From Lathyrus oleraceus (taxonomy: Eukaryota > Streptophyta > Magnoliopsida > Fabales > Fabaceae): a stretch of DNA of 64,000 nt. Positions within the stretch are counted from its first letter, which is position 1. Every line of letters begins with the position of its first letter. The notes under the pieces were generated by a model. The model had not been told where the DNA came from. It did no database searches and worked only from the letters and a program-made list of their open reading frames with translations. A program made the position numbers and the translations under genes. This document shows, in pieces, positions 37,031 to 61,206 of this stretch. Where the stretch lies: positions 531,788,582 to 531,852,581 of the forward strand of contig NC_066585.1 of NCBI RefSeq assembly GCF_024323335.1, given 5' to 3'.

Positions 37031-37042
37031 CCGATTCTCATC

Positions 37043-40527: not shown

Positions 40528-40533
40528 TATAAG
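40528..40533 (+). promoter_or_regulatory. Putative TATA box of Ogre-2 5' LTR
   Basis: TATAAG in GGAAGTATAAGAGC, about 1.4 kb into the LTR. The position is comparable with the Ogre-1 TATA box. Confidence 0.45.
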
Positions 40534-43500
40534 AGCTTAATCATAACTGAATTTGGATCACAATCACAAATCACAAGAATTTCTAACTGTTTTTCCTCCA
40601 AATTGCAAAATTCATCAAGAAGCTTCATCAACAAAATTCATTGGAACTTCCTCATTTCTTCACCAATTCACGAAATTCCTTTTGCTTCATCTTCCATGGA
40701 TCATTGGCTTGGACTGTTTTGAAGAATTGGAGCAAGAAAGTGGCCAAATCGTGACTGTTCATCTTTAGCTCATCCATGGTGAATTGAAATTTCTTGCACT
40801 TGGATCAACGTTGGACCAAGCTAAGCATTGCATTCACTTTCCTATAGCTTCTCCTTCATCTGTTTTAAGGAATCACGCGCCAAAGCTCCAAGAACATCAA
40901 CTGCTTCATCCAAGGTACCAAAACTCGACCTCAATGTTTGCTTCAATTGTTACATGCGTTCTGTAGTGCCTTCCATGTAGATGATCGTGATGTAGGTAGT
41001 TTTTGATTTAGTGAACTATAGGTCGAGATATGTTGATTTTAAGATTTGAATGCAAAACCTAAATCGCTCGATCCGTGAGCTACAGTTAGAATTAGGATGA
41101 ATTAGTTGCATATTAGAAATCCTCATGCTTAGACCTTTCCAACCATATAGAGTTTGTGAATTTTGGTTGAGGAATGATCGAAACCGAATTGGAAGGCGAT
41201 GAACATGTGTGAGCGCGCGAAGAAGATGCTGAACTGTTGCGTTTGATCCATGTAATTGCCTTGGCTGTTTGAATCTTTGTTTGCCGCGCTCAGGAGCCAA
41301 TAGGAACATTTCGTTGCCATTAAGCCATATGACGTCGTTTTTGCCTGGCACGTTAATATTACAACAATGCCATTCCTTCAATTTATTTTGTTATTTCATT
41401 TTCTTTTTCTTATTTCAATTTCAATTTTGTTACCACAACTTAGAAAATTGATATCTCACTCATAATTCATCCAAATTTTGTGAGATTTTTTGTGCCATGC
41501 TCATGAGAATGTGTAGAATTTAATGATATTTTTTGTGGATTTTTTGCACATGTAGAAAAATAAAATGCTTAGGGATTGTTTGATGTGTTACATTTTGGTA
41601 CACTTTGCCATATCTATCATGAAATGCTCATACTTGTAAAGAAATGGATGAAAATTTTTATGCTTAATCTGGACATGTTGATGGTGATTTCCATGTAGAG
41701 TTTGTGAATTTTGGATACTTGGTTGATTAGATATGAATTTTTGGAGTAAGGTGTGACAATTTGTGTCACACCTAGCTAGGTCAACTTTCTGATTTTATTT
41801 GCATGGCCTAGAAATGTTTGATTGCTCCAATTTTTTGCATGAATGATCATTGATATGTCAAGGTAACATGTGAATTTTGCTGAATTTTTGATGTCATTTT
41901 CTAATTGATTGATGATTTTCTTCTCTGTATGCTCATTTGGTAACATTGTGTGATACATGTTGGCATTTTGATTGTGAAATTCTCATAGTGTACTGGATGA
42001 AGATGAAATTTGATATGTTGATTGTAGACACATTGTGGGACATCATGCTTTTGGTCCCATTCATTTCTTGATTGTTGTCACTGTTTTATGAATTATTGAA
42101 ATGGATGCTTGTTTGGATATCTTGAATTGGCTTGTATAATTGTGTCTGGACTTCTTGATTTTCATTGACCTACTTTCTTTTGTCCAATTGAGCTGAAAAT
42201 TGACATGCTACTTGTTGATTGTGTCCTGTTTAGGTGTGAATTATTTGAGGATTTTTGGAATTGTTTTGGTATGCCTTTGATTGAAGTCATTCTGTTTGGA
42301 CTTTTGGTGTTGTATTTGACCTAGTTTGTGGTATATTGTGCATGAATTGATATTGGTGAATGATATGAGCATGGGACCAATTGCATCTGCTTCTAATGTG
42401 CTTTAATTTGATGATAATTGAAATTCACTTGCTGTTTAGATTTTTTTATTCTTTTTGGACCCTAGGCTTGGCCTAGTGGTCTAGTTTCTCACATTTGGTT
42501 TGGATTTTCAGGTTGAAATTCAAAAGGCTTAAGGAGAAAAAAACTCAAGTTGTAAATTGAGATTGTTGGATGTTGTGAACTAACATTGGCTTTGTGTTGT
42601 AGGTTTGAAGCTTGAGTTTGAGCTCATAGCTTGCACTTATGTGCATTAACTTGTGTTGTCTGTATAGATTGACTTTTGTTGTTTACTGTTGGTTTGTCTG
42701 AGTACTGATGATACTTGATTGATTTCAGGTACATTTAGTCGCTTACAGTTCTTTAAGAACTTGCTTGCTGCTGCTTGGTTTTTTAACCAGTGGAGGTAGA
42801 ATCTCTATACTTCATGTAGTCTGGAAGACCTGGCCTGTTACCTGGCCAGGCAACTGTCTGAAGTCCTCCTTAAGAGGCGATGTTTGTGATTGTTTACTTT
42901 TGTGCCAAGCAGGTGAAGACCTCTATGAGGCAATTGGCGGAATCCAAGGGATATGCAATCTATCCCCCGCTATTCTGTGAGTCGTCCCTCTGCTCACATG
43001 GCTGTGTGTTGATGCATTGGGACACAAACCCAAGATCTTGTGCTGTTGCACAATCGAGTCAGAGTCTTGAGCGTAGAAGGGTCCCTCCATTCTGGACCCA
43101 CGCTCCTTTGTCTGGAGCTCTCCCTGGACAGGGATAAGAGCTGTGAAGTCTAATCTTCACTCACCTTTCATCTGCTTCACCTTAGCCTCGCAATGGCAAG
43201 GTTAAGAGCGAACACTACACATGTACAGATGACTTGCTTCGGCAGTCAAACCCATTGTTTGAGCCTCACTTGACTGGTTATAGTGTGTGCTTTGTGAATA
43301 TTTGTTTGCTCTGTTTGCTTGTATGCTTGTATGCTTGCTTTCTTCCTGGATAGGATTAGCTTGCAGTTGTGCAAGTAGGTAGAAACCTCAACGTAGGGCA
43401 ATGATGCATGACAACACTAGGCTCGAGTACAGCTCCCTGGTAGTGTGTCTTCCCTTGGTTTCTGGCTAGATTTTCTTTCCCTTTAGGGGGAACTACATCG

Positions 43501-43914
43501 CCCTGATCCTCGTTCCAGACGAGGTATGTAGGCAGGAGACCGTGCGAGGTCTCTCCGGGCACTTTTTTTTTGTGTGTGTTTACTTGTTATCTGCTTGTGT
43601 GTCAGGATATGGACGTAAGCCCAGCGATTGGCTGTACGTATCCTGATTGTGTTTGTTTGGTTCGGAAGCTGACGTAATTCCATCGAGTGGTTGTCGGGTT
43701 CCAGGTTTGCCTGTGGGTGTATGTGTGTTGTTTGGCGTGCGTGAGCCGAACTACGGCAGCTCTGATTCTCGTTCCAGACGAGATACGTAGGCATAGGATG
43801 CGATGTCCTATCGAGCTCCCTTCTCTTAACCCCACCTGCGTTCCTTGTGTGTGTGTGTGATGTTTTAGCAACCTTTTCTTTTCTTAGAGCGTGGATCCCG
43901 TCGAGTACGACGGA

Positions 43915-43950
43915 CGTGAGGGGTGCTAATACCTTCCCCTTGCGTAACCG
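43915..43950 (+). other. Conserved Ogre LTR tail block (Ogre-2 5' LTR)
   Basis: GTGAGGGGTGCTAATACCTTCCCCTTGCG: the outer arms pair with two wobbles. It is followed by TAACCGACTCCCTTACCC, similar to the Ogre-1 sense text TAACCAACCCCCTTACCC. Confidence 0.6.
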
Positions 43951-44106
43951 ACTCCCTTACCCTTTCTCTTTGGTCGCGAGACCATTTCCTTTCCAGGTTT
44001 CTCTGAGCGTTTCCTTTCCCTATCTTGGGATAAATAACGCGCAGTGGCGGCTCTGTGTTGTGTTTTTGTTTCAGTCCGCCGGTTGTTTTTTCGCGGATGC
44101 GACAGC

Positions 44107-44124
44107 TGGCGACTCTGCTGGGGA
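44107..44124 (+). other. Primer-binding site of Ogre-2
   Basis: TGGCGACTCTGCTGGGGA, 2 nt after the LTR and identical to the Ogre-1 PBS. Ogre elements are known to use tRNA-Arg. Confidence 0.92.
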
Positions 44125-45314
44125 CACTCGGATGTTGACCTGTGCTGGTCCATCGTCCCTAAGCGAGTCCTTCCTAGCGTGCTAGGATTAGTTTAGGTTG
44201 CTTGTGTTGTGTTATTTATTGCATTTATTATTCTAACCAGTGTATATATTTGCATAAATATTTGCATGCATCATACTATCATGTTGCCGTCCTCTGTGCA
44301 GGTGGTTCCTCTGTTTGGGGGTGGGTGTTCTGAGTGGGGCTAAAACCCAGGCCCGAGTGTACACCTAGGATTAGTATGGTCTCACGTTCCTCATTTGCTA
44401 TATCAGTACGATGTTGCAACGTGACATACCACAAGCCGGACGAGGTTCATTTGATAGTGCTTTCCATTGTGGAATATTTCACTTTGGTTGAGTTACTTCA
44501 TCTGAATTATTGACTCTGGTGACCGATCGTTTCCCGGATCTTTGGTTTAGATGATCTCAGGAGAGCTACAATGGCACACCCGAAAGGGCAAACCCATTGA
44601 GTATCTTTGCCCGATTGTCGAGACTATTATCCGCCTTAGGATGACCTGATTAGAATTTACCTGTGAGGGGAGGGTGATTCTTTCAGATGCATGATCAGAT
44701 GGTGACTTTGATGGTGACTAATGGTTCCGTGGATCAGAGTCCTATTTATAAGTCGGATTTATGGCCATTTATTGTCGTGACGCCGGAGTGCTGTCCGTGG
44801 TATTTATCAGTGGGGATCTGTTTATTTCAGAATTCCCCGGGCCGATTTTATCAGTGGGGATCCGTTTATTTCAGGATTCCCCGGGCCGATTCAGATGGGT
44901 ATCTGCTCAGAGATTGTCTGATGATGATGATGATGATGTATCTGTCTTCCGTTTATTTCGGAACCCTTGAGATGGATTTGTGGTTACGTTTTCCTTCAGA
45001 TGGTTGTGATCAGTCCAGAGATCCGGGCTGTAGTTCAGAGCAACAGATGTTCAGATGACTTGGAGGATGGCACAATGCATTGCATACATCTGCATCATTC
45101 TCATTTTGCATTCATCTGCATCGAACCTATGTCTAGCCATATGGGGAGTATTATTGATTGAGAATCGGGTTGAGAGACATCTTGAATTTCAGAATGTGGA
45201 TGTCAAAATATTATCTGTCTCGATGAAACCAGGATCAAAAGATAGAATATTCCTCATATGGATAGACGTTGCGTTCATGCATATTAACCTGTTTGCTGTT
45301 TTGCAGGGGTCGGG
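44125..45314 (+). other. Ogre-2 leader, ORF1 absent
   Basis: About 1.2 kb with no plant-mobile-domain ORF, unlike Ogre-1. A 47-bp direct duplication with core ATTCCCCGGGCCGATT (about 44832 and 44876) and a (GAT)n run near 44918. TTTCAG just before 45341 could be a splice acceptor. Confidence 0.6.
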
Positions 45315-46679
45315 TTGCTAACGTGCTTGCCTGTTTCAGGAACCATTGCTCGAGCGCGCAGAGTTGTACCTTTGCACTCAACACGTCCTCACAGATACTT
45401 CACGCGACGCAATACTCCGAGACTGATGGATCTCCCGAATACTGATATCCTCGAGCTGAAGGACAAGATGACTGAGCTGATCAACATCATGCAGGGTTTT
45501 GCAGTTGGTCAGAAAGCTCTGGCTGATAAGGTCGAGAAGCTCGAGCGAGCTTCAGCTGCTAACAGTGTTGTTAACCTGGATGGTGTCTCCAACCAAGGGC
45601 TGGGTGGATCCAGGGATGGTGGTAAAAGAGCGACCGTGGGTATAGTGAACAATGCTGCTGGGTTTGGTGCTGCTACAGGTGGGCCCGGTCTGGGGCATAA
45701 TCTGAAGGATAGTCTGTTCCCGCCTTTCTTTGGGGTCGATGATGACAGAGAGGAAGACCGAGAAGCTGATCAATTCTCCATGCACAATGAGCCATTCGGT
45801 CAATATGGTGCTCAGCCACAAAGCAAAGAAATTCAGTTACTGGCAGAGAAGGTAAGGGCTCTGGAAAGCCACGCTACTCCGGGATTTGTCAACATGTCCA
45901 ACATGGGGCTGGTTGAGGGGATTGTGATTCCACAGAAGTTCAAGGCGCCCGCATTTGATAAATATAATGGGAGTTCCTGCCCGGAGACTCACCTTCAAGC
46001 ATTCGTCCGCAAGATCTCTGCGTACACAATGGATCAAAAGCTGTGGATGTACTTTTTCCAGGACAGTCTGTCCGGAGGGTCCCTGGAGTGGTACACCAAG
46101 CTGAAATCTGCTGACATCAAGAGCTGGCAGGATTTGGGAGATGCATTCTTTAAACAGTACCAGTTCAATGCTGACATGGCTCCTAGTCGTACCCAGCTGC
46201 AGGGTATGTCTCAGAAGTCAAGTGAAGGGTTTAAAGAATATGCCCAAAGGTGGAGGGAGTTGGCTGCCAGAGTTCAACCTCCATTGGTTGATAGAGAGAT
46301 GTCTGATCTCTTTATGGGTACCTTGCAAGGGGTTTTTGCTGAAAGAATGGTTGGATGCCCGGTTACCAACTTTGCTGATATTGTGGTGGCCGGAGAAAGA
46401 ATTGAAAGTTGGCTGAAAATGGGGAAGATTCAAGGTAATGCTTCGTCATCAGCATCGAAGAAGCCATTTGGGAATGGTCAGCGCAAGAATGAGGGTGAAT
46501 CGAGTGCTGTGTATGCCCAGAGAGGAAATGGTAGGGATTGTTACTACCAGCACACTGCTGCTGTAACCATCCCTGCTGGTAATCAGTCAGTACGACAGCA
46601 ACGTCAGCCACCTCAGCAGAGAGCCGGGTATCAAGTAAGGGGAAAAGGGATTGATCGTCAGTTCGATAAACGCCCGTGA
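45315..46679 (+). CDS. gag: Ogre-2 Gag
   Basis: Open for 454 codons; ATG 45426 (MDLPNTDILELKDKM) is the likeliest natural start because it matches MDHLEQENHELKEEV of Ogre-1. An N-terminal coiled-coil heptad segment is followed by a Gly-rich linker. The Retrotrans_gag domain is at about residues 210-360: PQKFKAPAFDKYNGSSCPETHLQAF, MYFFQDSLSGGSLEWYTKL, LGDAFFKQYQFNADMAPSRTQLQ, FKEYAQRWRELAARV. A Gln-rich tail follows. The frame ends at 46679, and the nucleocapsid part continues after frame breaks. It is intact enough to make capsid protein for particle assembly, the one function this non-autonomous element may still supply. Confidence 0.85.
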   Translation: MLTCLPVSGTIARARRVVPLHSTRPHRYFTRRNTPRLMDLPNTDILELKDKMTELINIMQGFAVGQKALADKVEKLERASAANSVVNLDGVSNQGLGGSRDGGKRATVGIVNNAAGFGAATGGPGLGHNLKDSLFPPFFGVDDDREEDREADQFSMHNEPFGQYGAQPQSKEIQLLAEKVRALESHATPGFVNMSNMGLVEGIVIPQKFKAPAFDKYNGSSCPETHLQAFVRKISAYTMDQKLWMYFFQDSLSGGSLEWYTKLKSADIKSWQDLGDAFFKQYQFNADMAPSRTQLQGMSQKSSEGFKEYAQRWRELAARVQPPLVDREMSDLFMGTLQGVFAERMVGCPVTNFADIVVAGERIESWLKMGKIQGNASSSASKKPFGNGQRKNEGESSAVYAQRGNGRDCYYQHTAAVTIPAGNQSVRQQRQPPQQRAGYQVRGKGIDRQFDKRP

Positions 46680-47058
46680 CTTACGCTTCTCTGTTAAAAA
46701 GTTGATGGATCTTGGATTGGTACGGCCAAGGGTGTTGACTCCGTTGAAACCTGATCAGAGGCCTGCCAGCTATGATGAGAATGTCAGGTGTGAGTTCCAT
46801 GCTGGGGCACCCGGACATCACATTGAGGATTGCAAAGCTTTTAAGCATATTGTCCAGGATCTGGTAGACTCCAAGGCCATCAATTTTGCACCATCACCAA
46901 ATGTTAATGCTAATCCAATGCCGGCGCATGGTCAGGCAGTGGTGAGTGCAATTACTGAAGATTCAGATCACGTCTGTGTGATGGGTGAAGAGAATGACAG
47001 TAACTGCAAGTTTGATGGTTGGATAAAGCCGTGCGTACCAGGAAGCTGGAAGGCTTAA
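46651..47058 (+). pseudogene. Ogre-2 Gag C-terminal knuckle region
   Basis: KKLMDLGLVRPRVLTPLKPDQRP leads to CEFHAGAPGHHIEDCKAFK, the Ogre-type zinc-binding knuckle, then MPAHGQAVVSAI and WIKPCVPGSWKA. It is separated from Gag by two small indels near 46675-46700. The protease that should follow is missing. Confidence 0.75.
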
Positions 47059-47340
47059 AAAGATCAGCACTGTTACTCATCCTGAAGAGTAGTACTTTCT
47101 TGTTTTCAGTTTTATTTGCATGAAAGCCATACGTGTTGCCCGACACGTAATGGTCCATTGTAAGGGCCACCTCATGTTTAAATTTGCATTTTCTGCATCA
47201 TTAATAAATGGATGTTTTTCAGTCAAAAAGCGGTGTTCCCTGTTTTTCATTTATTTTTGCAGTTTAAAAACAAATAAAAATGGCAATGTTTGTTTTCATT
47301 TTTCTTTTTTGATTTGTCTCGTCCCAAAGTCGAAAAATAA
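47059..47340 (+). other. Probable remnant of the Ogre intron
   Basis: T-rich, stop-filled sequence between the gag knuckle and the pre-RT connector, with several TTTCAG and TTTGCAG candidate acceptors. In Ogre a spliced intron lies between protease and RT. Here it directly follows Gag because the protease is deleted. Exact splice sites are not assigned. Confidence 0.4.
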
Positions 47341-47399
47341 TTCTCCGGATCTCGTTGATAACAATTTGGTTACACCTCATATGACTTCGACAAACCGAT

Positions 47400-47925
47400 C
47401 TATCATGCCGAAGAAGAAGGCGAAGAAGATTGTGATCTGCTGGAATTAGCCAGGTTGTTGAAACAAGAGGAGAGGGTGATTCAGCCGCATGCGGAGCGGA
47501 TTGAGATTGTTATTCCAAGCACCGCCGAGGTCAGGAAGGAAGTGAAATTAGGGCCGCTTCAGAGGCAAGTCGAGAGCAGAATGGTAGCCTTGTTGAAGGA
47601 GTATGTGGATACCTTCACCTGGTCATGCCAGGATATGCCAGGGTTGGACACTGGTGTCGTTGTGCACGAGCTACCATGGAGAGAAGACTGTCCTCTAGAG
47701 AAGTAGAACGCCAGTGCCTGTATCAGAGAGCCATGGTGACTTTGTTTCGTGATATGATTCATCATGAAATCGAATGCTATGACATGATAGCAAAGTCCCA
47801 AACAGAAGAGGGGCATCTGGTTGAGATAATTCAAACTGAGGTTGAATTCAGACAAGTGCACTATCAGAGTGCGGTCCGGTAAGATGCTGGGGTTCATTGT
47901 AAGAGAGGAATCCGAGGTTGATCCT
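47400..47925 (+). pseudogene. Ogre-2 pre-RT connector and RT shreds
   Basis: EDCDLLELARLLKQEERVIQPHAERIEIV and LVALLKEYVDTFTWSCQDMPGLDTGVVVHELPW (47425-47700) are the connector, ending in TAG. The next text (47733-47880) jumps to the RT catalytic neighbourhood, but the Y-V-D-D box is reduced to ECYDMIAKSQTEEGH, so the first catalytic Asp and a neighbour are gone. The RT fingers and palm between them are deleted. KMLGFIVREE at about 47885 is the RT thumb. Confidence 0.72.
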
Positions 47926-47928
47926 GTT

Positions 47929-47963
47929 AAAAAAAAATAAAAAAAAAATAAATAAATAAATAA
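47929..47963 (+). repeat. A-rich/TAAA simple repeat
   Basis: Run of A broken by T, ending in TAAATAAATAAATAA. Confidence 0.9.
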
Positions 47964-48269
47964 GAAATACCTGAACCGAGGATGGAAAGAGGTTCGTGGT
48001 CTCTTAGGCAGATGGAACTACATGTCATGGTTCACATCTCATCTGATAGCCACGTGTGAACCCATATTCAGGATGTTGAAAAGAAAGATCAAACGGTCAG
48101 GTGAAATAATGATTGCCAAAAGGGTATTGAAAGAATAAAGAATAAGTTGCAGGAACCTCTGATTCTGATACCTTCCGTGGAAGGAGCGATTGTTAATCTG
48201 TGCTTGACGGCCTTCGAGGGGTCTACGAGGTGTATTGGGTCAGCATGACGCGTCTTGTCGAAAAGAGCA

Positions 48270-48648
48270 TGCAATTTACCTTAGCAAAAAGTTTACCGAC
48301 TGTGAAACAATACATTCACTGTTCGAGAAAACTTGCTGTACTTTGGCATAGGCTGCTCGCCGACTGAGACAGTGTATGCTGGTTCATAACACTTTGTGGA
48401 TTTCCGAGATGGATCCGATCAAGTATGGGTGTGAGAATCCAGCATCGACCGGACGGGTTGTGAGAGTACGAAAGAATGCTGACTGGTTTGTGATACTCTC
48501 AGAGAGCAATCAAGGGGTATTGTCTGATTACATCGCCCGCAACCCATTGAGGATTATCAACCGAGGAAGTTTGAGTTCCCTGATGAGGACATCTCGAGGT
48601 GCTCTAATAGAAAGATTGAGAGTAACCGATCCCGGAGGAGGGGCCTGA
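48270..48648 (+). pseudogene. Ogre-2 RNase H remnant
   Basis: LAKSLPTV and CRKLAV-like shreds, then LVHNTLWISEMDPIKYGCENPASTGRVVR and GVLSDYIARNPL. These align with 37373-37672 of Ogre-1. The catalytic strand is gone. 47964-48269 holds no recognisable gene. Confidence 0.6.
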
Positions 48649-48719
48649 CCCTGAATTCGAACGGATTCTGATGTCTGATGGGGAGGAAGGTGAATAAGCT
48701 TTGGTTGTCCGGATAACAT

Positions 48720-49220
48720 TTGAATGCACCAGCAAGGGTGGCTGAATACGAAGCTTGTATTCCGGGTATCGAACCTCGGTGCGCCTACTGGGGCAATGCC
48801 TTTCTCGTTGGTGTATGGAATGAAGCCGTGTTACCGGTTGAGGTTCAGATTCCCTCTTTGAGAGTCCTGATGGACGTGAAATTGCAAGAGGCAGAATGGG
48901 TAAGGACCCGGTACGAAGAGTTGAGCCTGATGGAGGAAAAGAGGCTAGCAGCCATCTGTCATGGGCAGTTGTACCAGTAAAGGATGAAGCGTGCTTTTGA
49001 CAGAAAGGTACGACCTCGGGTGTATCACGTGGGTGATATGGTGCTGAAAAGGATCCTTCCTCCTCAAAACGATCGAAGGGGCAAATGGACACCGAATTAT
49101 GAAGGTCCATTCGTGGTCAAGAAGGTTTTCTCTGGCGGAGCCTTGTTGTTAACGACCATGGATGGTGAGGATTTTCCATCCCCTGGGAATGCGGACGCAG
49201 TTAAAAAATACTTCGTATAA
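48720..49220 (+). pseudogene. Ogre-2 second RNase H stub fused to integrase C-terminus
   Basis: ARVAEYEACIPGIE is from the second RNase H. After a few residues the text becomes integrase C-terminus: AVLPVEVQIPSLRVLMDVKLQEAEWVRTRYEEL, RMKRAFDRKVRPRVYHVGDMVLKR, GKWTPNYEGPFVVKKVFSGGALLL, ending DAVKKYFV. The whole HHCC finger and DDE core are missing. An in-frame TAA at 48978-48980 splits it. Deletion across the integrase makes self-integration impossible. Confidence 0.82.
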
Positions 49221-49229
49221 AGAGACCCG

Positions 49230-49419
49230 CTGGACGAAAAGAATAAAATAGTCCAGGCAAAAATGGGCATCCCGGCGAACCAAAAAACAGAATGAAAAAG
49301 GTTCGGGCAAAAATTAGGGATAGAATGAAAAATGTACACCCGGCAAGTCGAAAACCTGAAAAGGCGACTTGGGCAAAAATGGGTATCCTGGTGGACTGAA
49401 AACCCGAAAGGGCGGTCCA
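49230..49419 (+). repeat. Post-integrase hairpin row of Ogre-2
   Basis: Four units: 49230-49256 (CTGGAC/GTCCAG), 49276-49305 (CGAACC/GGTTCG), 49344-49371 (CAAGTCG/CGACTTG with inner CCT-GAAA-AGG) and 49392-49419 (TGGAC/GTCCA with inner CCC-GAAA-GGG). Each is followed by GGCAAAA. The row begins 10 nt after the stop. Confidence 0.85.
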
Positions 49420-49440
49420 GGCAAAAGAGGGATTGAAACG

Positions 49441-50518
49441 AACAACTGCGTCTGGCATGATCGTTTGCGCTTTGGTTAAAGCATCATGGATAATACCCGG
49501 TAGGGATCAATCAGAAACGTCTTGTTCAGAAGGCCGAAAGCACGGAGAGTCTGAGGACATATGGGGTGTAACTGAGTTGGAACTCGATGAGATCACGGGT
49601 TTCACATTGCCATCAGGATAGATTTTTCCTTTTGTGCGCAATTACCTCTTTTCAGGAATTGCTTCCGTTGTATTGCTCAATTTGAGCCACATTCTTTTCC
49701 AATCAATAAAGTGCATATTCAGTCAAATAATCTTGTTTTTGTTTTTCATTACCGCTTTGATTGCAAAAACATCCAATTATTTTTGATAAAGAATCTTGTA
49801 TTTTAAGACATACAGGTCCCTTCCAATGCATGTTTATAAGATTGAAAGCTTGAAATCTTATTTGGAAGGTTGGGTGACCCAAGTGTTGAAATCTTGACAC
49901 GCCTGGGGCACGGTTTTATCTGACGATCTGTTTTGCAGGTACTGTTAGATATTTTCACTCGCTTGCAGGATGTGGTGTGGAAGCTGTTGTAAAACAAATC
50001 CCTATGGAGTCCAATCAGGGACGAGGGACGGACGAAAGAATATGAAGGGATGACGAGAAGACGTTGAGACGTACGACGATCCTTGATTTTAATCAAGAAG
50101 ACTCTTCAAAATCGGAAGATTGGAAAGTCTGTAGAAATTCCCCGCAGGGTCCAATCAGGGACGAATGAATGGGTAGAGAAGCGATGAGAGACGTCGAGGC
50201 GTACGACGACCTTTGGAATTAATCAAGAAGACTCTTCAAAGTCGGAAGATTGAAAAGTCTGTATAATCCCCAGGAGTGCGCTCTCCGTCGAGTGCGGAGC
50301 GGTTGGGAATACAAGATGATGGAGCAGAAAAGGTCCAGACGAGTCTGGGAATTCTCAAAAGTGGAAAGCTGATAGGAGATTGGGAGGGGGATACCGTGGT
50401 TCGACGAGTCGACGGGTGTTCTGTACCAACTTTTCTCATTTCCCAGCTAAGTCCCCAAGCAGAATTAGAGGACCAAATCTCTAGCAGATCCAAAGTCTAT
50501 GGATCCCTTGGCCGAGTC
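49441..50518 (+). other. Ogre-2 3'UTR, proximal part
   Basis: No gene. Holds a 140-bp imperfect duplication (GGTCCAATCAGGGACGA-type core at about 50008 and 50148, with ATCAAGAAGACTCTTCAAA in each). Confidence 0.65.
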
Positions 50519-51116
50519 GGGATGGTTATCCCCGGCAGGTTCAAAACGGTGTTTCCTCAGCAACCAGGCCTGAAGGTTGCTATTCCCCGAGTGGAGCGGG
50601 TTTCAATGAAATATATCTCCAGCAGTGTTCATCCTACCAGTGGATCGGATGAGTTTCCGTAGCAGTCCGATATCTGCATCCCCAGCTGAGTGTATCCTAC
50701 GTGTGGATTGCATGGGTTGTCCCCAGCGGAGTAGCATTCGTTTTCCCTAGCAGGGTTTGGATGGTTATCCCCAGCAGGTGTCAGATCGATGCTTCCCCAG
50801 TTGCCAGGCCTGGAGGTGGCTGTTTTCCCAGCAGAGTATCTGTGAGCATTTCCCCAGTGAAGTCGTCAGGTATCTGTGAGGTTTTCTCGAAGCAGAGTCG
50901 AGATTTATATCCTCAGCAAGTCAAAGATTGTTGTATCCCCACAGAGTGCATTGGTGGTTCTTATCCCCAGCAAATTCCCGAGCGGATTGGGTGCAAAGGA
51001 GGTTTCCTCAGCAAGGGTTGCCTTTTCCCAGCAGCAGTGCTATTCCCCAGCAGGGTGGAGTTGGAGCAATGGCGAGTTCCTCAGCAGAGTGTCTCGTGCT
51101 TCCCAGAAGAGTCCCT
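50519..51116 (+). repeat. Anti-PBS motif array, about 15-18 degenerate copies
   Basis: Short units spaced about 20-35 nt with core TCCCCAGCAGAGT, which is the complement of PBS bases ACTCTGCTGGGGA. 12/13 matches at 50679 (TCCCCAGCTGAGT), 50718 (TCCCCAGCGGAGT), 51044 (TCCCCAGCAGGGT) and 51078 (TCCTCAGCAGAGT). TCCCAGCAGAGT at 50826 and AGCAGAGTCG at 50891 also match. Confidence 0.85.
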
Positions 51117-51239
51117 TGAGGGGAATATTTTTTATGCATTCATCATGTAAATAAGCATAGCATATTGCATAGAAAAAATAAATAATCGCGTAGCATTTCC
51201 ATAATTATGGAGCATTACGCAGAAAAATCAATCATGCAT

Positions 51240-51473
51240 CATTGCAAGCATAGGCTAGTCTCAAGCCGTGGTTACCGTTTGAGATATGGTTCTGCCAGTG
51301 GGTGAAGATGCTACTCGAGCCGTGATTACCGTTTGAGGAGTGGTTTCACTAGTTGGAAAATCATCAGTATTGCAAGTATCAGTTACTCGGGCCGTGATTA
51401 CCGCTTGAGATTTGATGTTCTCCAGTAGTGCGATACTGGAGGAGATTTTTTCCGTCGGACAGAGATGGAGATG
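51240..51473 (+). repeat. Diverged relatives of the 91-bp repeat
   Basis: CAAGCCGTGGTTACCGTTTGAG-like and CTCGAGCCGTGATTACCG-like phrases lead into the regular array. Confidence 0.7.
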
Positions 51474-52019
51474 TGACGCGTTCAGCGCGATTCAAGCCGT
51501 GGATACCGCTTGATATTTGGTTTCACCGGATGGTGAAGATGTTACTTGGATAAGTTCAACATCATGACGCGTTCAGCGCGATTCAAGCCGTGGATACCGC
51601 TTGATTTTTGGTTTCGCCGGATGGTGAAGATGTTACTTGGATAAGTTCAACGTCATGACGCGATCAGCGCGACTCAAGCCGTGGATACCGCTTGATATTT
51701 GGTTTCACCGGATGGTGAAGATGTTACTTGGATAAGTTCAACATCATGACGCGTTCAGCGCGATTCAAGCCGTGGATACCGCTTGATATTTGGTTTCGCC
51801 GGATGGTGAAGATGTTACTTGGATAAGTTCAACATCATGACGCGTTCAGCGCGATTCAAGCCGTGGATACCGCTTGATATTTGGTTTCGCCGGATGGTGA
51901 AGATGTTACTTGGATAAGTTCAACGTCATGACGCGATCAGCGCGACTCAAGCCGTGGTTACCGCTTGAAGGTTTGGTTTCACCAGATGGTGAAGATGTTA
52001 CTCTGAGGAGTTTAGCATC
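51474..52019 (+). repeat. 91-bp tandem repeat, six units, in Ogre-2 3'UTR
   Basis: TGACGCG starts units at 51474, 51565, 51656, 51747, 51838 and 51929, exactly 91 bp apart. Each holds TCAAGC...GCTTGA inverted arms around CGTGGATACC and the string GCGTTCAGCGCG. Units are nearly identical, so the expansion is recent. Ogre 3'UTRs are known to generate satellite-like arrays. Confidence 0.95.
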
Positions 52020-52539
52020 ATGGCGTCAGATCAGCAATGTTCCCCAATAGTGCGATATTGGAGGAAATTTTTCTATCGAGCAGAGATGGAAATAAAATCA
52101 GAGGGCGTTACGCGATCAGCGCGATTCTGGGGTTCAAACTGGAGAATGGGGTTCATTATTTTGGCAAACAGGAGAACGGGGTTCAAATGCAGTGATCGGG
52201 GATCATTCGCGAAAAAGAAGATTTTGGGGTTCGAGAAAAGCATAAAAAAGGAAAGGAATAATAATCCCGAGTGGATGAGTGGTGTTCAGGCCATGGTTAT
52301 CCCTGCATTACCATTTATTTTGGTGGTCAGGTCGATGTTGATTGCTTCGGTATTCGGGCCAACTTTCTCCGTACCAGACGGATTTTGGTTTCGAGTTTGC
52401 TTCTTCGCCGATCCTGACAGGCATTGTTAATTATTTTCCCATCAGAGTGCAAATTGTTCGTCTGTTCTTGGTATTCAATCACTCTTCATCCTGATCATCT
52501 GAAAGCCGAGGCTATTCATATCGACAGGTTCACAGTGGA
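52020..52539 (+). other. Ogre-2 3'UTR, distal part
   Basis: A 136-codon frame (52020-52430) has no recognisable domain and starts inside the repeat tail; I do not call it a gene. Short GGGGTTCA repeats near 52130-52200. Confidence 0.55.
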
Positions 52540-52554
52540 TTGAATAGGGGCAAC
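52540..52554 (+). other. Polypurine tract of Ogre-2
   Basis: TTGAATAGGGGCAAC abutting the 3' LTR. Confidence 0.88.
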
Positions 52555-55500
52555 TGTAACACCTCAAAATTTGCCCTCCTCTCTTGGGACTAGCATAACA
52601 TATTACAAATCATTTTTAGGTCATTAGGCATTGCATATTGCATATCATGTGGTTACATTGTGCAAATCATCCTCACAAGTCTTGATCAGAAGATGGGAGG
52701 TCATGTGCAAGCTAGGGTTTTATTGGACTGGTCATTAATCATCTGAGGATGTGGAGGTCCAAATTAGGGTTTTGTGGTTCTCAAGGAGATTGGTCTTCAT
52801 CTTGTTTGAAATGATACATCATCATCATCATGGTTTGTCATCATCAAGTGTTGGATCAGATGCCTTGGGATTAGGGTTTTGACCACTGGTCAACCCTAAT
52901 CAGTTGCATTGGGCCAATCAGGGCATGGCAAGGAGATGGGGTCTATGATGGATATGGGGATCATTATTTGGTTTTATGGAGATTATTAAGGCTAGGGTTT
53001 CACCCTTGAGCCATTTCATCAGAGGATTGGTACTCAGTTTGATCTATGCATTGCCAAATTCATCTATCAGTTGAAAAAGACAACTGTGGTCAACTGTGCA
53101 TGATTTAATGGATTTGGAGGTGGAAATGAGTTGGATATACTTCATTCATGTTGGAACAAGTGTTATTTGACATTTCAAAGCTTAAGAATGAAGAAAATCA
53201 AGTCAGGACAAAAATTGCCAAAAATAGAAAGTGACTTGTAATGGAAGTTTCCAAAAATGGAAAGTTTTTGACCTCAAAATTACATGTCCAAGGAAGCTTC
53301 AAATGAAAATTTGTTCAACATGAAAGTTGTAGATCTTGTTCTCACCTTTCCAAAAAGTCCAATAACTTGAAAATCCCATGTATGGTTGACAAGTTATGGT
53401 CCATTCAATTTCAAAAATGACCCATAATCAAAGTGGCATAACTTCCACATGGAGTGTCCAAATGGGATGATCTTTTTATGTGCAAACTCCATTTGACATG
53501 TACTTTCATGGTGCATAATTGGAATTCATCAAAAGTGGTCAATGCAAAAGGTCATTTTTCAAGTGCATAATTAAAAGTCCAAGGGCAAAATGGTCCAAGT
53601 TGAGAAATAATGGGAATTTTGGCATGGGAGTTTTTGCAACACCTCACAAATGCAAATTAGAAATTGTTTCAACTGTCACAAGTGCTCAAAGTTCAATATT
53701 TGGATAGGCCATTTTGGAACTTCACTTGAAAGTACACAATTTGGCATTGCATAGTGAAAATGAAAATTACAAGGCCAATTGATGTGGGACCAATGCCAAC
53801 ACATCACAACTGATAATTGGAGAGTGTGTGAGCTGTCATACAGCTGTCACAAGGCTTAGGGGGAAATGTCCATTTTGCCCTTGCATTGAAAATTCACATT
53901 AAGCTAATCCATTGCATTTTGGTTAATTAGTGCTTAAAGAATGGATTAAGTGGAAGTATAAGAGCTTAATCATAACTGAATTTGGATCACAATCACAAAT
54001 CACAAGAATTTCTAACTGTTTTTCCCTCCAAATTGCAAAATTCATCAAGAAGCTTCATCAACAAAATTCATTGGAACTTCCTCATTTCTTCACCAATTCA
54101 CGAAATTCCTTTTGCTTCATCTTCCATGGATCATTGGCTTGGACTGTTTTGAAGAATTGGAGCAAGAAAGTGGCCAAATCGTGACTGTTCATCTTTAGCT
54201 CATCCATGGTGAATTGAAATTTCTTGCACTTGGATCAACGTTGGACCAAGCTAAGCATTGCATTCACTTTCCTATAGCTTCTCCTTCATCTGTTTTAAGG
54301 AATCACGCGCCAAAGCTCCAAGAACATCAACTGCTTCATCCAAGGTACCAAAACTCGACCTCAATGTTTGCTTCAATTGTTACATGCGTTCTGTAGTGCC
54401 TTCCATGTAGATGATCATGATGTAGGTAGTTTTTGATTTAGTGAACTATAGGTCGAGATATGTTGATTTTAAGATTTGAATGCAAAACCTAAATCGCTCG
54501 ATCCGTGAGCTACAGTTAGAATTAGGATGAATTAGTTGCATATTAGAAATCCTCATGCTTAGACCTTTCCAACCATATAGAGTTTGTGAATTTTGGTTGA
54601 GGAATGATCGAAACCGAATTGGAAGGCGATGAACCTGTGTGAGCGCGCGAAGAAGATGCTGAACTGTTGCGTTTGATCCATGTAATTGCCTTGGCTGTTT
54701 GAATCTTTGTTTGCCGCGCTCAGGAGCCAATAGGAACATTTCGTTGCCATTAAGCCATACGACGTCGTTTTTGCCTGGCACGTTAATATTACAACAATGC
54801 CATTCCTTCAATTTATTTTGTTATTTCATTTTCTTTTTCTTATTTCAATTTCAATTTTGTTACCACAACTTAGAAAATTGATATCTCACTCATAATTCAT
54901 CCAAATTTTGTGAGATTTTTTGTGCCATGCTCATGAGAATGTGTAGAATTTAATGATATTTTTTGTGGATTTTTTGCACATGTAGAAAAATAAAATGCTT
55001 AGGGATTGTTTGATGTGTTACATTTTGGTACACTTTGCCATATCTATCATGAAATGCTCATACTTGTAAAGAAATGGATGAAAATTTTTATGCTTAATCT
55101 GGACATGTTGATGGTGATTTCCATGTAGAGTTTGTGAATTTTGGATACTTGGTTGATTAGATATGAATTTTTGGAGTAAGGTGTGACAATTTGTGTCACA
55201 CCTAGCTAGGTCAACTTTCTGATTTTATTTGCATGGCCTAGAAATGTTTGATTGCTCCAATTTTTTGCATGAATGATCATTGATATGTCAAGGTAACATG
55301 TGAATTTTGCTGAATTTTTGATGTCATTTTCTAATTGATTGATGATTTTCTTCTCTGTATGCTCATTTGGTAACATTGTGTGATACATGTTGGCATTTTG
55401 ATTGTGAAATTCTCATAGTGTACTGGATGAAGATGAAATTTGATATGTTGATTGTAGACACATTGTGGGACATCATGCTTTTGGTCCCATTCATTTCTTG

Positions 55501-57537
55501 ATTGTTGTCACTGTTTTATGAATTATTGAAATGGATGCTTGTTTGGATATCTTGAATTGGCTTGTATAATTGTGTCTGGACTTCTTGATTTTCATTGACC
55601 TACTTTCTTTTGTCCAATTGAGCTGAAAATTGACATGCTACTTGTTGATTGTGTCCTGTTTAGGTGTGAATTATTTGAGGATTTTTGGAATTGTTTTGGT
55701 ATGCCTTTGATTGAAGTCATTCTGTTTGGACTTTTGGTGTTGTATTTGACCTAGTTTGTGGTATATTGTGCATGAATTGATATTGGTGAATGATATGAGC
55801 ATGGGACCAATTGCATCTGCTTCTAATGTGCTTTAATTTGATGATAATTGAAATTCACTTGCTGTTTAGATTTTTTTATTCTTTTTGGACCCTAGGCTTG
55901 GCCTAGTGGTCTAGTTTCTCACATTTGGTTTGGATTTTCAGGTTGAAATTCAAAAGGCTTAAGGAGAAAAAAACTCAAGTTGTAAATTGAGATTGTTGGA
56001 TGTTGTGAACTAACATTGGCTTTGTGTTGTAGGTTTGAAGCTTGAGTTTGAGCTCATAGCTTGCACTTATGTGCATTAACTTGTGTTGTCTGTATAGATT
56101 GACTTTTGTTGTTTACTGTTGGTTTGTCTGAGTACTGATGATACTTGATTGATTTCAGGTACATTTAGTCGCTTACAGTTCTTTAAGAACTTGCTTGCTG
56201 CTGCTTGGTTTTTTAACCAGTGGAGGTAGAATCTCTATACTTCATGTAGTCTGGAAGACCTGGCCTGTTACCTGGCCAGGCAACTGTCTGAAGTCCTCCT
56301 TAAGAGGCGATGTTTGTGATTGTTTACTTTTGTGCCAAGCAGGTGAAGACCTCTATGAGGCAATTGGCGGAATCCAAGGGATATGCAATCTATCCCCCGC
56401 TATTCTGTGAGTCGTCCCTCTGCTCACATGGCTGTGTGTTGATGCATTGGGACACAAACCCAAGATCTTGTGCTGTTGCACAATCGAGTCAGAGTCTTGA
56501 GCGTAGAAGGGTCCCTCCATTCTGGACCCACGCTCCTTTGTCTGGAGCTCTCCCTGGACAGGGATAAGAGCTGTGAAGTCTAATCTTCACTCACCTTTCA
56601 TCTGCTTCACCTTAGCCTCGCAATGGCAAGGTTAAGAGCGAACACTACACATGTACAGATGACTTGCTTCGGCAGTCAAACCCATTGTTTGAGCCTCACT
56701 TGACTGGTTATAGTGTGTGCTTTGTGAATATTTGTTTGCTCTGTTTGCTTGTATGCTTGTATGCTTGCTTTCTTCCTGGATAGGATTAGCTTGCAGTTGT
56801 GCAAGTAGGTAGAAACCTCAACGTAGGGCAATGATGCATGACAACACTAGGCTCGAGTACAACTCCCTCGTAGTGTGTCTTCCCTTGGTTTCTGGCTAGA
56901 TTTTCTTTCCCTTTAGGGGGAACTACATCGCCCTGATCCTCGTTCCAGACGAGGTATGTAGGCAGGAGACCGTGCGAGGTCTCTCCGGGCACTTTTTTCT
57001 TTTTGTGTGTGTTTACTTGTTATCTGCTTGTGTGTCAGGATATGGACGTAAGCCCAGCGATTGGCTGTACGTATCCTGATTGTGTTTGTTTGGTTCGGAA
57101 GCTGACGTAATTCCATCGAGTGGTTGTCGGGTTCCAGGTTTGCCTGTGGGTGTATGTGTGTTGTTTGGCGTGCGTGAGCCGAACTACGGCAACTCTGATT
57201 CTCGTTCCAGACGAGATACGTAGGCATAGGATGCGATGTCCTATCGAGCTCCCTTCTCTTAACCCCACCTGCGTTCCTTGTGTGTGTGTGTGATGTTTTA
57301 GCAACCTTTTCTTTTCTTAGAGCGTGGATCCCGTCGAGTACGACGAACGTGAGGGGTGCTAATACCTTCCCCTTGCGTAACCGACTCCCTTACCCTTTCT
57401 CTTTGGTCGCGAGACCATTTCCTTTCCAGGTTTCTCTGAGCGTTTCCTTTCCCTATCTTGGGATAAATAACGCGCAGTGGCGGCTCTGTGTTGTGTTTTT
57501 GTTTCAGCCCGCCGGTTGTTTTTTCGCGGATGCGACA
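52555..57537 (+). repeat. 3' LTR of Ogre-2
   Basis: 4983 bp, nearly identical to 39129-44104. Differences seen by eye include an extra CAT near 52818, A/C near 54634, and single-base changes near 56862, 56870, 57191 and 57345. TATA equivalent at 53957-53962. Confidence 0.96.
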
Positions 57538-57542
57538 GATAT
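57538..57542. other. Target-site duplication of Ogre-2, right
   Basis: GATAT. Confidence 0.95.
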
Positions 57543-58773: not shown

Positions 58774-61206
58774 TTATAGAAGCTGGTCTACAACGTTGTA
58801 CTCGCTCCTTTTGATGAGCCTCAGCATCTCATCACAATCTTCTTTCGTATTGCCACTTGGGCCAACAGAAGCAGGATTTTTCAATATAGAGGAGGGCTTA
58901 GCAACAAGTGCCGGATTCGGGGTGCTCAGTGCATTCCCAATCGGGCGTTCAGCAAAATCAGTATCAACACTTCCTCGAGCATCAGCTTGAGGTCTCGACG
59001 GAGCTGAAAATACACGACCACTACGGGTCAAACCGCTGACGTCAGCAATATTAACAACAGACGAAGAGGGAAGGGACACCTCTTTCCCATTTTCCACTGC
59101 TACAGCATTGTAGTGATAGGGAACCGCCTTCTCAGAAGAGTACGGTACAGGTCCGACCGACTTGATGACGAGAGTAGGAGAAGCCTTCTTCTTGCTGCCA
59201 TCATACTTGATAACAACAGGCTCAGGTATCCGGAATACCGGAGAAATTACATTGACTTCGAGGGCATCTTCGTCAACATTTCTGTTTTGAAGGATCTCAA
59301 TGACTCTTTCGTCCAACATCTCTTGAACATCCTTGCGCACCTGGCGACAACCCCTCTGATTGACAGAACATACTCGGCATCCATCGTGGTCATGCTCATA
59401 ATGACTATAATCACATAGCAAGCGATGCATCTCAACCAGCGATTGTCGGATATGACTGACATATTTAACTTTGTACTTGCCAGGGCAACCCTGGACCATA
59501 TTAACAGATTTCCCATGCTCGGGCAATGGGTTCTTTTTCACGTTTGGACCTACGTCCTCGAAAAACAAAATCCCACTTCTCACAAGGTCTTGCACCTTGG
59601 TCTTCAGGGGATAGCAATTTTCCACGTCATGTCCGGGAGCACCGGAATGATACACATAGTGAAGCTCAGGCTTGTACCACCACTGGGGGTTAGCAGGTAC
59701 AGCGGGAGGGTCTCGTGGAGTGATTAATTTTCTATCAATCAGAGATGGATAGAGTTCAGCGTAAGTCATTGGAATTGGATCGAAGGTGACCCTCTTCCTC
59801 TCATAGCTGGTGCTGGCATTGTTGTTGTTGTTTCGAGGCTGGTAGGCCTGCTGTTGTGGACGCTGTTGTTGTTGATGATATTGCTGAGTTTGTGGTTGTT
59901 GTTGATAATGTTGAGCTTCCCTGAAAATAGGTGCTATGTGAGCCACCTGATGCTGATTGTTGACCGGGCGAGCAATCTTCCTCTTCATAGAGGGTCTTCT
60001 CTTGATATGGGAAGACACAACATGTGCCTCTCCCTCCTTCTTCTTCACAAAGCTTCCATATCTCTTTGCTGAAGAGCCTTCATCTCGAGTTAACCGTCCT
60101 TCACGGACCCCCTCTTCCAGTCTCATTCCCATATTCACCATCTCGGTGAAGTCTGAGGGAGCACTGGCTATCATTCTCTCGTAGTAAAACGAGCTCAAGG
60201 TCTTCAAGAAGATCTTGGTCATCTCTTTTTCCTCAAGGAGAGGCACTATCTGAGTTGCCAATTCGCGCCACCTCTGGGCGTACTCTTTGAAGGTTTCCTT
60301 ATCCTTCTGCGACATTGCTCTCGATTGGTCCCTATCCGGAGCCATATCCACATTGTATTTATATTGCTTGACGAAAGCCTCGCCAAGATCGTTGAAAGAT
60401 CGGATGTTCGAACTCTCCAAACCCATGTACCACTGGAGAGAGGCACCAGACAGACTGTCCTGGAAATAATGGATGAGAAGTTGATCGTTATCAGTTTGCG
60501 TTGACATCTTACGAGCATACATCACAAGATGGCTGAGTGGGCATGTGTTTCCCTTATACTTCTCAAAGTCAGGCGCTTTGAATTTAATAGGGATCTTCAC
60601 GTTGGGCACAAGGCACAACTCAACAACACTCTTACCAAAGAGGTCTTTTCCCCTCAAAGTTTTCAGTTCCTTGCGAAGCTCAAGGAATTGATCCTTCATA
60701 TCATCCATCTTCTCATAAACGTTTGGGCCCTCAGATGGCTCAGAATAGTAGATGGTATCTTCGACCCTTGGTAGCGTGTGCACAACGGGAGGTGGCACTG
60801 AAAGGACCAGGCTAGATGCCGGCAAAGAAGCAAGAGTATGAAGAAAACCCTCTGGCACAAAGTTGGCGGGCATTCCCCAAGGGAACCCGGCTGGCATAGA
60901 TGGCGCAAAGTGAGCTGTTGCAGCAGGCACAATAGAAGTTACGATCTCAGAAATGACCGTCCTCTGGGGAGGAGTTGATGGCGTTGGAGAAGACTGGCTC
61001 TGGGCAGCCAAGAATGACTCTATTAAGGCAGTCAACCTGGCTACTTCCTCTTTCAACTCGTGGTTTTCTTGTTCTAGATGATCCATCAGTCTCAAAGAGT
61101 TGGCTCTGGTGTAGTACCGGTGAGTCAGCTTGTCTTTGAAATAAATGAAGGACACAGAGTTAGACCATAGGACAAGAAGCCTGGAACAAAATCTGCTTAT
61201 GCACAT
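58774..61206 (-). CDS. gag: Ogre-1 Gag
   Basis: 810 codons open. The N-terminal ATG at 61206 precedes YYTRANSLRLMDHLEQENHELKEEVARL; the MDHLEQ methionine is an alternative start matching Ogre-2. Coiled coil at about residues 43-68. Retrotrans_gag domain at about 205-375 (IPIKFKAPDFEKYKGNTCPLSHLVMY, HYFQDSLSGASLQWYMGL, LGEAFVKQYKYNVDMAPDRDQSR, FKEYAQRWRELAT). Gln/Asn-rich region at about 430-480. A knuckle HYVYHSGAPGHDVENCYPLK has lost its first cysteine (Ogre-2 keeps CEFH). A second Cys/His-rich stretch (HDGCRVCSVNQRGC) follows. The frame is intact to its stop, which itself looks like a point mutation. Confidence 0.9.
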   Translation of the reverse strand: MCISRFCSRLLVLWSNSVSFIYFKDKLTHRYYTRANSLRLMDHLEQENHELKEEVARLTALIESFLAAQSQSSPTPSTPPQRTVISEIVTSIVPAATAHFAPSMPAGFPWGMPANFVPEGFLHTLASLPASSLVLSVPPPVVHTLPRVEDTIYYSEPSEGPNVYEKMDDMKDQFLELRKELKTLRGKDLFGKSVVELCLVPNVKIPIKFKAPDFEKYKGNTCPLSHLVMYARKMSTQTDNDQLLIHYFQDSLSGASLQWYMGLESSNIRSFNDLGEAFVKQYKYNVDMAPDRDQSRAMSQKDKETFKEYAQRWRELATQIVPLLEEKEMTKIFLKTLSSFYYERMIASAPSDFTEMVNMGMRLEEGVREGRLTRDEGSSAKRYGSFVKKKEGEAHVVSSHIKRRPSMKRKIARPVNNQHQVAHIAPIFREAQHYQQQPQTQQYHQQQQRPQQQAYQPRNNNNNASTSYERKRVTFDPIPMTYAELYPSLIDRKLITPRDPPAVPANPQWWYKPELHYVYHSGAPGHDVENCYPLKTKVQDLVRSGILFFEDVGPNVKKNPLPEHGKSVNMVQGCPGKYKVKYVSHIRQSLVEMHRLLCDYSHYEHDHDGCRVCSVNQRGCRQVRKDVQEMLDERVIEILQNRNVDEDALEVNVISPVFRIPEPVVIKYDGSKKKASPTLVIKSVGPVPYSSEKAVPYHYNAVAVENGKEVSLPSSSVVNIADVSGLTRSGRVFSAPSRPQADARGSVDTDFAERPIGNALSTPNPALVAKPSSILKNPASVGPSGNTKEDCDEMLRLIKRSEYNVVDQLL

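Follow-up and report, generated by a model that had tools for sequence, protein, structure and literature searches.

The question raised by this locus is why the 3' untranslated region (3'UTR) of an Ogre retrotransposon should hold many short, degenerate copies of a word that is complementary to the primer-binding site (PBS) of the same element. The window, i.e., the whole stretch of 64,000 nucleotides of pea (Lathyrus oleraceus) DNA analyzed here, contains two Ogre elements on opposite strands, an outer one (Ogre-1) and a second one nested within it (Ogre-2), and the array lies in the latter (Table 1). Ogre elements are reported to account for over 20% of the pea genome (PMC2206039). A tie between 3'UTR and primer site that holds across such a family makes the question testable: does the array follow changes in the PBS, and does it touch the PBS?

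Table 1. Features of the window that bear on the array (positions count from the first base of the window)
Feature	Position	Strand	Remarks
Separate Ty3/gypsy element	1360-12095	+	1.5 kb LTRs (99.9% identity); gag to integrase frames
PBS of the separate element	2868-2885	+	TGGCGCCGTTGCCGGGGA; different from the Ogre PBS
Anti-PBS units, Ogre-1 3'UTR part 2	30252-31020	-	sense strand of Ogre-1
Anti-PBS units, Ogre-1 3'UTR part 1	34157-34966	-	sense strand of Ogre-1
Integrase frame of Ogre-1	35651-37042	-	Pfam rve 2.7e-13, Integrase_H2C2 8.3e-10; just upstream of Ogre-1 3'UTR
Ogre-2	39129-57537	+	Ty3/gypsy element of the Ogre kind, nested in Ogre-1
5' LTR of Ogre-2	39129-44104	+	ends read from sequence
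PBS of Ogre-2	44107-44124	+	TGGCGACTCTGCTGGGGA, 18 nt; just 3' of the 5 kb LTR
Local arm, predicted PBS hairpin partner	44155-44169	+	GTCCCTAAGCGAGTC; RNA fold
Integrase C-terminal part of Ogre-2	48822-49217	+	tblastn with plant Ogre proteins; marks 3'UTR start
Two outlying units (50138-50150, 50267-50279)	50138-50279	+	3 mismatches each
Main anti-PBS array	50440-51112	+	irregular spacing; not tandem by TRF
Ordinary 91-bp tandem repeat, apart from the array	51474-52002	+	Ogre-2 3'UTR; TRF 5.8 copies, 95%
Isolated unit	52436-52448	+	TTCCCATCAGAGT; 2 mismatches; ~100 nt before polypurine tract
Polypurine-tract-like sequence	52543-52553	+	AATAGGGGCAA; adjoins 3' LTR; read from sequence
3' LTR of Ogre-2	52555-57537	+	blastn self-match
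PBS of Ogre-1, the outer element	63767-63784	-	18 nt identical to the Ogre-2 PBS

The array of Ogre-2 and its setting

Ogre-2 has LTRs of about 4.98 kb that are 99.66% identical (39129-44105 vs 52555-57538, blastn of the window against itself) and is flanked by a 5-bp direct repeat, GATAT, read from the sequence at 39124-39128 and 57538-57542; long LTRs and a 5-bp target duplication are both traits of the Ogre lineage. The PBS is that of Ogre elements, which is reported to be complementary to tRNA-Arg (PMC2206039, the source of the tRNA assignment used here). With plant Ogre proteins as tblastn queries, matches on the reverse transcriptase side reach 48773 and the integrase C terminus follows at 48822; residues 328-665 of the 808 in one query (P0021), the RNase H and integrase core region, are unmatched between these points. 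Ogre-2 appears to be without RNase H and most of its integrase, and for this reason it is probably non-autonomous. Its 3'UTR extends from about 49217 to 52554. The LTRs, PBS, and integrase C terminus bracket the array, in agreement with the initial annotation, which had placed it in an Ogre 3'UTR.

Kinship with the Ogre elements of legumes is seen at the protein level in similarity scores of the Ogre-1 integrase and in the reverse transcriptase pieces and integrase C terminus that Ogre-2 keeps. The Ogre-1 integrase has 2,356 relatives at E<=1e-20 among 7,920 candidates scored, and the best-scoring named ones are from legumes (Trifolium, L. oleraceus, and Vicia). The frames of Ogre-1 at 58774-62981 (minus strand) include gag and, upstream of gag, a DUF7745 domain split across two frames. 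An Ogre-like integrase with 67% identity (P0022) is also encoded by a 2,975-base contig filed as Salmonella enterica, which is probably plant contamination of a bacterial assembly.

The array word, TCCCCAGCAGAGT, a 13-mer, complements all of the 18-nt PBS but its first five bases. Its mate, ACTCTGCTGGGGA, lies exactly at 44112-44124, where the initial annotation had put it, 6.3-7.0 kb upstream of the main array. On the sense strand of 50000-51160, the word is matched 5, 9, and 17 times at up to one, two, and three mismatches, respectively. The means for 100 dinucleotide shuffles, a comparison of the kind that had been proposed as a check, are 0.01, 0.02, and 0.43 (largest 1, 1, and 3), and the other strand of this interval has no match at up to three mismatches. 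Within 50519-51116, the extent originally given, the sense strand has 5 matches at one mismatch, 9 at up to two, 13 at up to three (12 non-overlapping), and 17 at up to four (16 non-overlapping). A figure of 15-18 degenerate units is a fair description at this loosest cut. The array is real but wider than first drawn, with further units at 50138, 50267, 50440, 50453, and 52436. At least four units had been said to match at 12 of 13 positions; those at 50679, 51044, and 51078 do so, the one listed at 50718 is really at 50720, and a unit at 50825 brings the count to five. The two outlying units sit in a direct repeat of about 115 bp (50030-50143/50159-50271), and the 91-bp tandem repeat farther downstream holds no anti-PBS match at up to three mismatches.

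Unit starts found by motif search are 19-51 nt apart, irregular, and not in threes. The units are not head-to-tail monomers, as TRF reports no array at 50440-51112 and the spacers share no consensus. Motif discovery that was blind to the PBS recovers TtTCCCCAGCAGag from 23 sites of Ogre-2 and tTCcCCAG.gGA.t from 33 sites of Ogre-1, of which several are weak. A coding repeat is excluded, since the distances do not keep to multiples of three and the reading frame of the match shifts in metagenome relatives of this region. Chance given base composition is excluded by the shuffles together with the upstream-word competition and the half-word test described below.

The word in Ogre-1 and across the pea genome

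In the nested pair, the diverged Ogre-1 shows the same relation as Ogre-2 but in weaker form. The interval 30200-35600, which comprises its 3'UTR and a foreign insert, has 6 anti-PBS matches on the Ogre-1 sense strand at up to two mismatches (0.05 expected from 40 shuffles) and 8 at up to three (0.68 expected); the antisense strand has none. The insert, at 31427-34103 on the plus strand, is a probable solo LTR of another Ogre-like family with a target duplication, CCAGG, on both sides. It went into an anti-PBS-like unit, whose flanks read TATCCCC-TGG and CAGAGGT on the Ogre-1 strand.

The separate Ty3/gypsy element in the window belongs to another lineage, and its PBS is presumably of the tRNA-Asp type. 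The part of it taken as its 3'UTR, 8400-10590, contains no match to the complement of its own PBS and no anti-PBS words.

The Ogre PBS occurs as 60,260 exact copies in the 3.80 Gb host genome (30,089 and 30,171 on the two strands), and its reversed control does not occur there at all. This figure agrees with the ~65,000 Ogre copies reported for pea (PMC2206039). A variant of the PBS with a C is present in 262 copies, and because this is so few beside 60,260 it is probably not a separate family; all of the Ogre PBSs studied have the same word. A genome count of a 14-mer is uninformative, given that 14 of 16 comparable places are PBS sites. Ogre DNA was not found outside the host genome in collections of viral, genome, or plasmid contigs; two viral-contig matches (L001 and L002) are chance, the latter as judged from a 120-base slice. 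Plant small RNAs described as miR5072 have the sequences CGTTCCCCAGCAGAGTCGCCA (PMC3844856) and TCCCCAGCAGAGTCGCCA (PMC5435993), and the "miR5072" of safflower and lily contains the Ogre PBS complement with CCA included. Because it ends in CCA and agrees exactly with that complement, it is likely a tRNA 3' fragment and not a miRNA.

The genome sample consists of 20 stretches 4-14 kb downstream of PBS sites, drawn from 100 sites listed among the 60,260 and all within the first 3 Mb of contig C1, so the sample is a local one. At up to two (three) mismatches, the 20 stretches hold 66 (126) sense matches, 11 (36) in the PBS-like orientation, 2 (12) to the reversed word, and 1 (16) to the complement. 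Several of the stretches hold elements that face the opposite way. When the 20 stretches and the window are divided into one-kb bins, 15 bins have at least four core matches (those from L012 and L013 being one place seen twice), as against none for each of four control words.

A stricter count comes from 3'UTRs anchored on integrase ends, with stretches that have no Ogre integrase end left out. Eleven such ends were found (56-93% identity to Ogre-1), one of them a duplicate view, which leaves ten. The anti-PBS word is present in sense in all ten 3'UTRs, with 2-21 matches each and 91 in total at up to three mismatches; in the control orientations there are 0 (antisense), 2 (reversed), and 4 (complement). 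Downstream of two non-Ogre integrase ends (22% identity, another lineage), which count as one family by their identical identity and extent, there are no matches. A comparison with 3'UTRs of other lineages, suggested in the initial annotation, sets ten of ten Ogre loci with the word against zero of two non-Ogre loci. By our own grouping on integrase and UTR similarity, the ten UTRs plus those of Ogre-1 and Ogre-2 amount to about four families. The Ogre-1 and Ogre-2 UTRs do not align with each other in the window self-search, and the L023 UTR aligns partly with both. It follows that the arrays probably share a common ancestor, from which the families would have inherited them, and so they are probably not independent events. 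These comparisons support the view that the array is a property of Ogre elements in general and not of one copy. The word can also serve as a coding-independent sequence tag for finding Ogre 3'UTRs.

The 13-mer was picked after the array had been seen, so the search was repeated without it. When all 5,882 13-mers of 44107-50000 in Ogre-2 are ranked by how often their complement turns up in 50400-51150, the PBS word comes first with 15 matches; the best upstream word that shares no PBS base has 4. In Ogre-1, the PBS word is first of 6,228 at up to two mismatches (6 matches, vs at most 3 for words outside the PBS), and at up to three mismatches one low-complexity word has 10 to its 8. With each of five elements' own 1.5 kb leader as bait, the raw rank of the PBS word is 1 in Ogre-2, 1 in Ogre-1, and 27, 9, and 26 of 1,488 in three genome elements. 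Once tandem copies are merged, nothing ranks above it in four of the five elements (the sole ties being with PBS words that overlap it); the exception, L012, has T-rich low-complexity words ahead of it and no others. Pooling the 12 UTRs gives the PBS word of the Ogre-2 leader 113 matches, compared with a mean of 6.7 (sd 6.9) per word; it is first for four of five leaders, and for that of L006 a word shifted by one base has 114. A second leader site near offset 160, better than the PBS for the L011 and L016 UTRs, was rejected: it traces to high-copy tandem repeats, has more than one copy in only 2 of the 12 UTRs, and falls below the PBS once tandem copies are merged. In this L011/L016 family, the tandem repeat is present at high copy in the 3'UTRs and is in part complementary to leader sequence some 160 nt beyond the PBS; the resemblance probably arose by chance and was then amplified along with the repeat.

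Selection bias is removed when the two halves of the word are scored against each other, the antisense strand of the UTRs and both strands of the remaining window serving as control. After TCCCCAG (at most one mismatch), at least four of the six bases of CAGAGT follow in 12 of 26 cases in Ogre-2 and 7 of 25 in Ogre-1, vs 3 of 110 in the control. Before CAGAGT, at least five of the seven bases of TCCCCAG are found in 11 of 22 and 5 of 20 cases, vs 5 of 425. The ten genome UTRs give 66 of 171 for TCCCCAG followed by CAGAGT, and antisense controls on the 12 UTRs give 0 of 34 and 0 of 187. The edges of the word are equally well defined. Per-position matching in the ten genome UTRs is 0.40-0.50 across CAGAGT and 0.20-0.29 across CGCCA, the last five primer bases, which are at chance in the units, so that similarity ends before them. 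On the other side, the base that precedes the word follows neither leader nor tRNA, and the word stops at the 3' edge of the PBS. Such limits to the similarity, the PBS boundary at one end and the start of CGCCA at the other, make a captured piece of a tRNA gene unlikely.

Pairing, selection, and the competing explanations

Cofolding predicts that the 13 PBS bases pair with three array pieces at 0.88, 0.97, and 0.87, values equaled by 4, 0, and 1 of 20 shuffles, so the predictions separate real from shuffled arrays only weakly. For the five remaining PBS bases (UGGCG), the predicted pairing with these pieces is 0.94, 0.62, and 0.51, next to shuffled means of 0.63, 0.53, and 0.57. In these models the five-base entry point is not kept free, which speaks against the lid or bridge reading set out below. 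The PBS also has predicted partners nearby. The Ogre-2 leader at 44107-44180 folds at -29.3 kcal/mol (z -2.16, with 6 of 200 shuffles as good), the Ogre-1 leader folds near chance (z -0.96), and predicted local pairing of the PBS 13-mer in eight genome leaders is 0.67-0.91. Leader hairpins are predicted to compete with the array for the PBS, with a degree of closure that varies. The local anti-PBS arm of Ogre-2 is shared by the leaders of L004 and L010 and is absent from Ogre-1.

Substitutions in 195 pooled units show no bias to changes that keep G-U pairs (C>T 118/975 and A>G 81/585) over those that break them (G>A 72/585 and T>C 54/390; p=0.90); an earlier set of 42 units gave p=0.11. Comparison of related UTRs gives 87.0% agreement in units and 82.0% in spacers, from 13 pairs of which 11 had aligned bases within the array zone. 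This difference is not significant, as 9 of 48 permuted words reach it (60 made, 12 with too few sites, sites taken at up to four mismatches), and in seven metagenome relatives the protein-level comparison is 55% v 53% (p=0.41). Pairing in the RNA that affects reverse transcription finds no support in the cofolding, conservation, or substitution tests. The initial reading holds up for an Ogre-wide 3'UTR array whose core is the PBS complement; it fares less well on pairing, where cofolding is weak, G-U bias is absent, and a predicted local hairpin already closes the Ogre-2 PBS.

What calls for explanation is a 13-nt word with the sequence of the primer tRNA's 3' strand, scattered through the 3'UTR in a few to some twenty copies, in one orientation and within sharp edges across the Ogre families. 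The reading that we favor, at a probability of roughly one in three, is that the array is an Ogre-wide, multi-copy 3'UTR element that would work by pairing with the PBS, as a lid or a 5'-3' bridge. The pairing, this role, and displacement by the tRNA are what we infer from the sequence relation. The PBS bound by a unit may belong to the same RNA or to the other RNA of a packaged pair, and any one of several units could cover it and so tie the two ends of the RNA, 5' leader and 3' end, together. UGGCG, the five bases at the start of the PBS that the word leaves uncovered, may offer an entry point for the CCA end of the primer tRNA, which would then displace the unit; the computed duplex energies are -39.3 kcal/mol for the 18 bp of tRNA and PBS vs -26.1 for the 13 bp of unit and PBS. 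A direct RNA lid or bridge is the first choice because units are in sense in every Ogre UTR examined and none is in the tRNA-binding orientation. Contacts between 5' and 3' regions near the PBS also have precedents in Ty3 and Ty1 (PMC5371799, PMC11381356). Confidence in it is kept down mainly by the absent wobble bias. The more specific proposal, that Ogre guards or presents its primer site with a many-copy 3'UTR imitation of its own primer tRNA and leaves a five-base entry for the true tRNA end only, is doubtful, if possible. The seeding of priming by the units, put forward initially, is disfavored, with CGCCA, the match to the extendable 3' end of the primer, at chance. A unit copied into minus-strand DNA and bound by the primer tRNA or a cDNA end would not be extendable. 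Seed priming is therefore unlikely, whereas all of this is compatible with a lid, a bridge, or a parking site.

The same null results suit an array with no function at all, in which copies of the PBS complement enter the 3'UTR through reverse-transcription errors and persist or are renewed without selection: wobble bias is absent, and single units have no significant extra conservation. Ogre 3'UTRs are also described as hypervariable and full of repeats, for which abnormal strand transfer is the proposed cause (PMC7004042), and the partial alignment of the L023 UTR with those of both Ogre-1 and Ogre-2 would allow simple inheritance of an old array. Yet a sharply bounded 13-nt word in a single orientation in all ten UTRs of about four families that align only partly speaks against this, and the Ogre-1 and Ogre-2 UTRs share it though they are unaligned in the window self-search. 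The copies also do without CGCCA, which a copied primer end or PBS would bring, and they lie between unrelated spacers and are not head-to-tail copies. An array without function is on balance somewhat less probable than the lid or bridge. A good deal less probable is mimicry of the primer tRNA for a protein (Gag, reverse transcriptase, or a synthetase), or an antisense transcript of the array, PBS-like in sequence, that would soak up 3' tRNA fragments attacking the PBS. The word corresponds to the base-paired 3' strand of the tRNA minus its CCA tail, which we take to be bases 59-71 in standard numbering, and recognition by sequence would account for the missing wobble bias. Plant small RNAs equal to the full 18-nt primer end (reported as miR5072; PMC3844856, PMC5435993) also speak for it, as do tRNA 3' fragments that hinder reverse transcription of mammalian endogenous retroviruses (reviewed in PMC7472051). 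Against it, a lone strand lacking its pairing partner would imitate a tRNA poorly, and sense RNA, having the polarity of the tRNA fragment, cannot bind it.

Pairing might instead take place in DNA, with the 3' end of full-length minus-strand cDNA (TCCCCAGCAGAGTCGCCA) annealing to its own copy of the array near the polypurine tract and 3' LTR. In an element of such length, this would park the acceptor close to the donor for plus-strand transfer, and the unpaired CGCCA would prevent false extension at the array. Integrase precedes the array in each of the Ogre UTRs found, a polypurine-like tract lies beyond it in both elements of the window, and with CGCCA at chance the parked end is not extendable. 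The idea predicts a bias to G>A and T>C, which keep G-T pairs, and none is seen in the 195 units; we hold it to be slightly more improbable than mimicry. Least credible of all, and close to dismissed, is that the word is some other signal that happens to resemble the PBS complement, such as a polypyrimidine-CAG splice-acceptor-like site or an opposite-strand G-run. A T-rich stretch followed by TCCCCAG does look like a 3' splice site, and Ogre transcripts are reported to be partly spliced (PMC6317226), but this leaves the second half, CAGAGT, unexplained even as it follows the first far above control, and it does not predict the PBS word as the top match among leader words.

Relation to known systems

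A lid or bridge with a five-base entry point would add a hitherto undescribed kind of primer-site control, and it would give a function to part of the unexplained Ogre 3'UTRs. A description of Ogre 3'UTR repeats that match the PBS was not found in the open papers searched; the chief study of these UTRs (Macas et al. 2009, Gene) lies outside that search and may contain prior notice. The 3'UTR tandem repeats of Tat, Ogre, and Retand elements share the location of the array between integrase and 3' LTR and vary by family (PMC7004042, PMC11963269). Those of Ogre are reported to seed satellites (PMC7004042), and PMC11963269 describes repeats at the corresponding place in the Retand lineage as having no known origin or function. 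They differ from the array in being head-to-tail, family-specific monomers, whereas the Ogre word is common to families, lies among unrelated spacers, and is negative by TRF.

Blocking of a PBS is known from HTLV-1, where a stable hairpin is opened for tRNA annealing (PMC13366004). That hairpin is local, with no distant array, and the Ogre-2 leader is predicted to have a local hairpin too. Ty3, likewise of the Ty3/gypsy group, has a bipartite PBS whose 5' site acts together with primer-related sequence at the 3' end: a 5' part and a second part in U3 some 4.8 kb away are proposed to circularize the RNA (PMC5371799, PMC11381356). The 3' part in Ty3 is complementary to the tRNA, whereas the Ogre units have the tRNA sequence and are complementary to the PBS, and Ty3 has one split site where Ogre has several short units. 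In the PBS-like orientation, the 13-mer occurs 0 times at up to three mismatches in the ten UTRs.

Ty1 has a single pair of cyclization sequences, which lies outside the PBS. The likeness is in the principle, as Ty1 CYC5 and CYC3 have direct 5'-3' complementarity inside one retrotransposon RNA (PMC11381356), and direct complementarity of 5' and 3' regions is likewise present in Ogre, in terms of sequence. The difference lies in the partners: Ogre has the PBS itself on the 5' side and a whole array on the 3' side.
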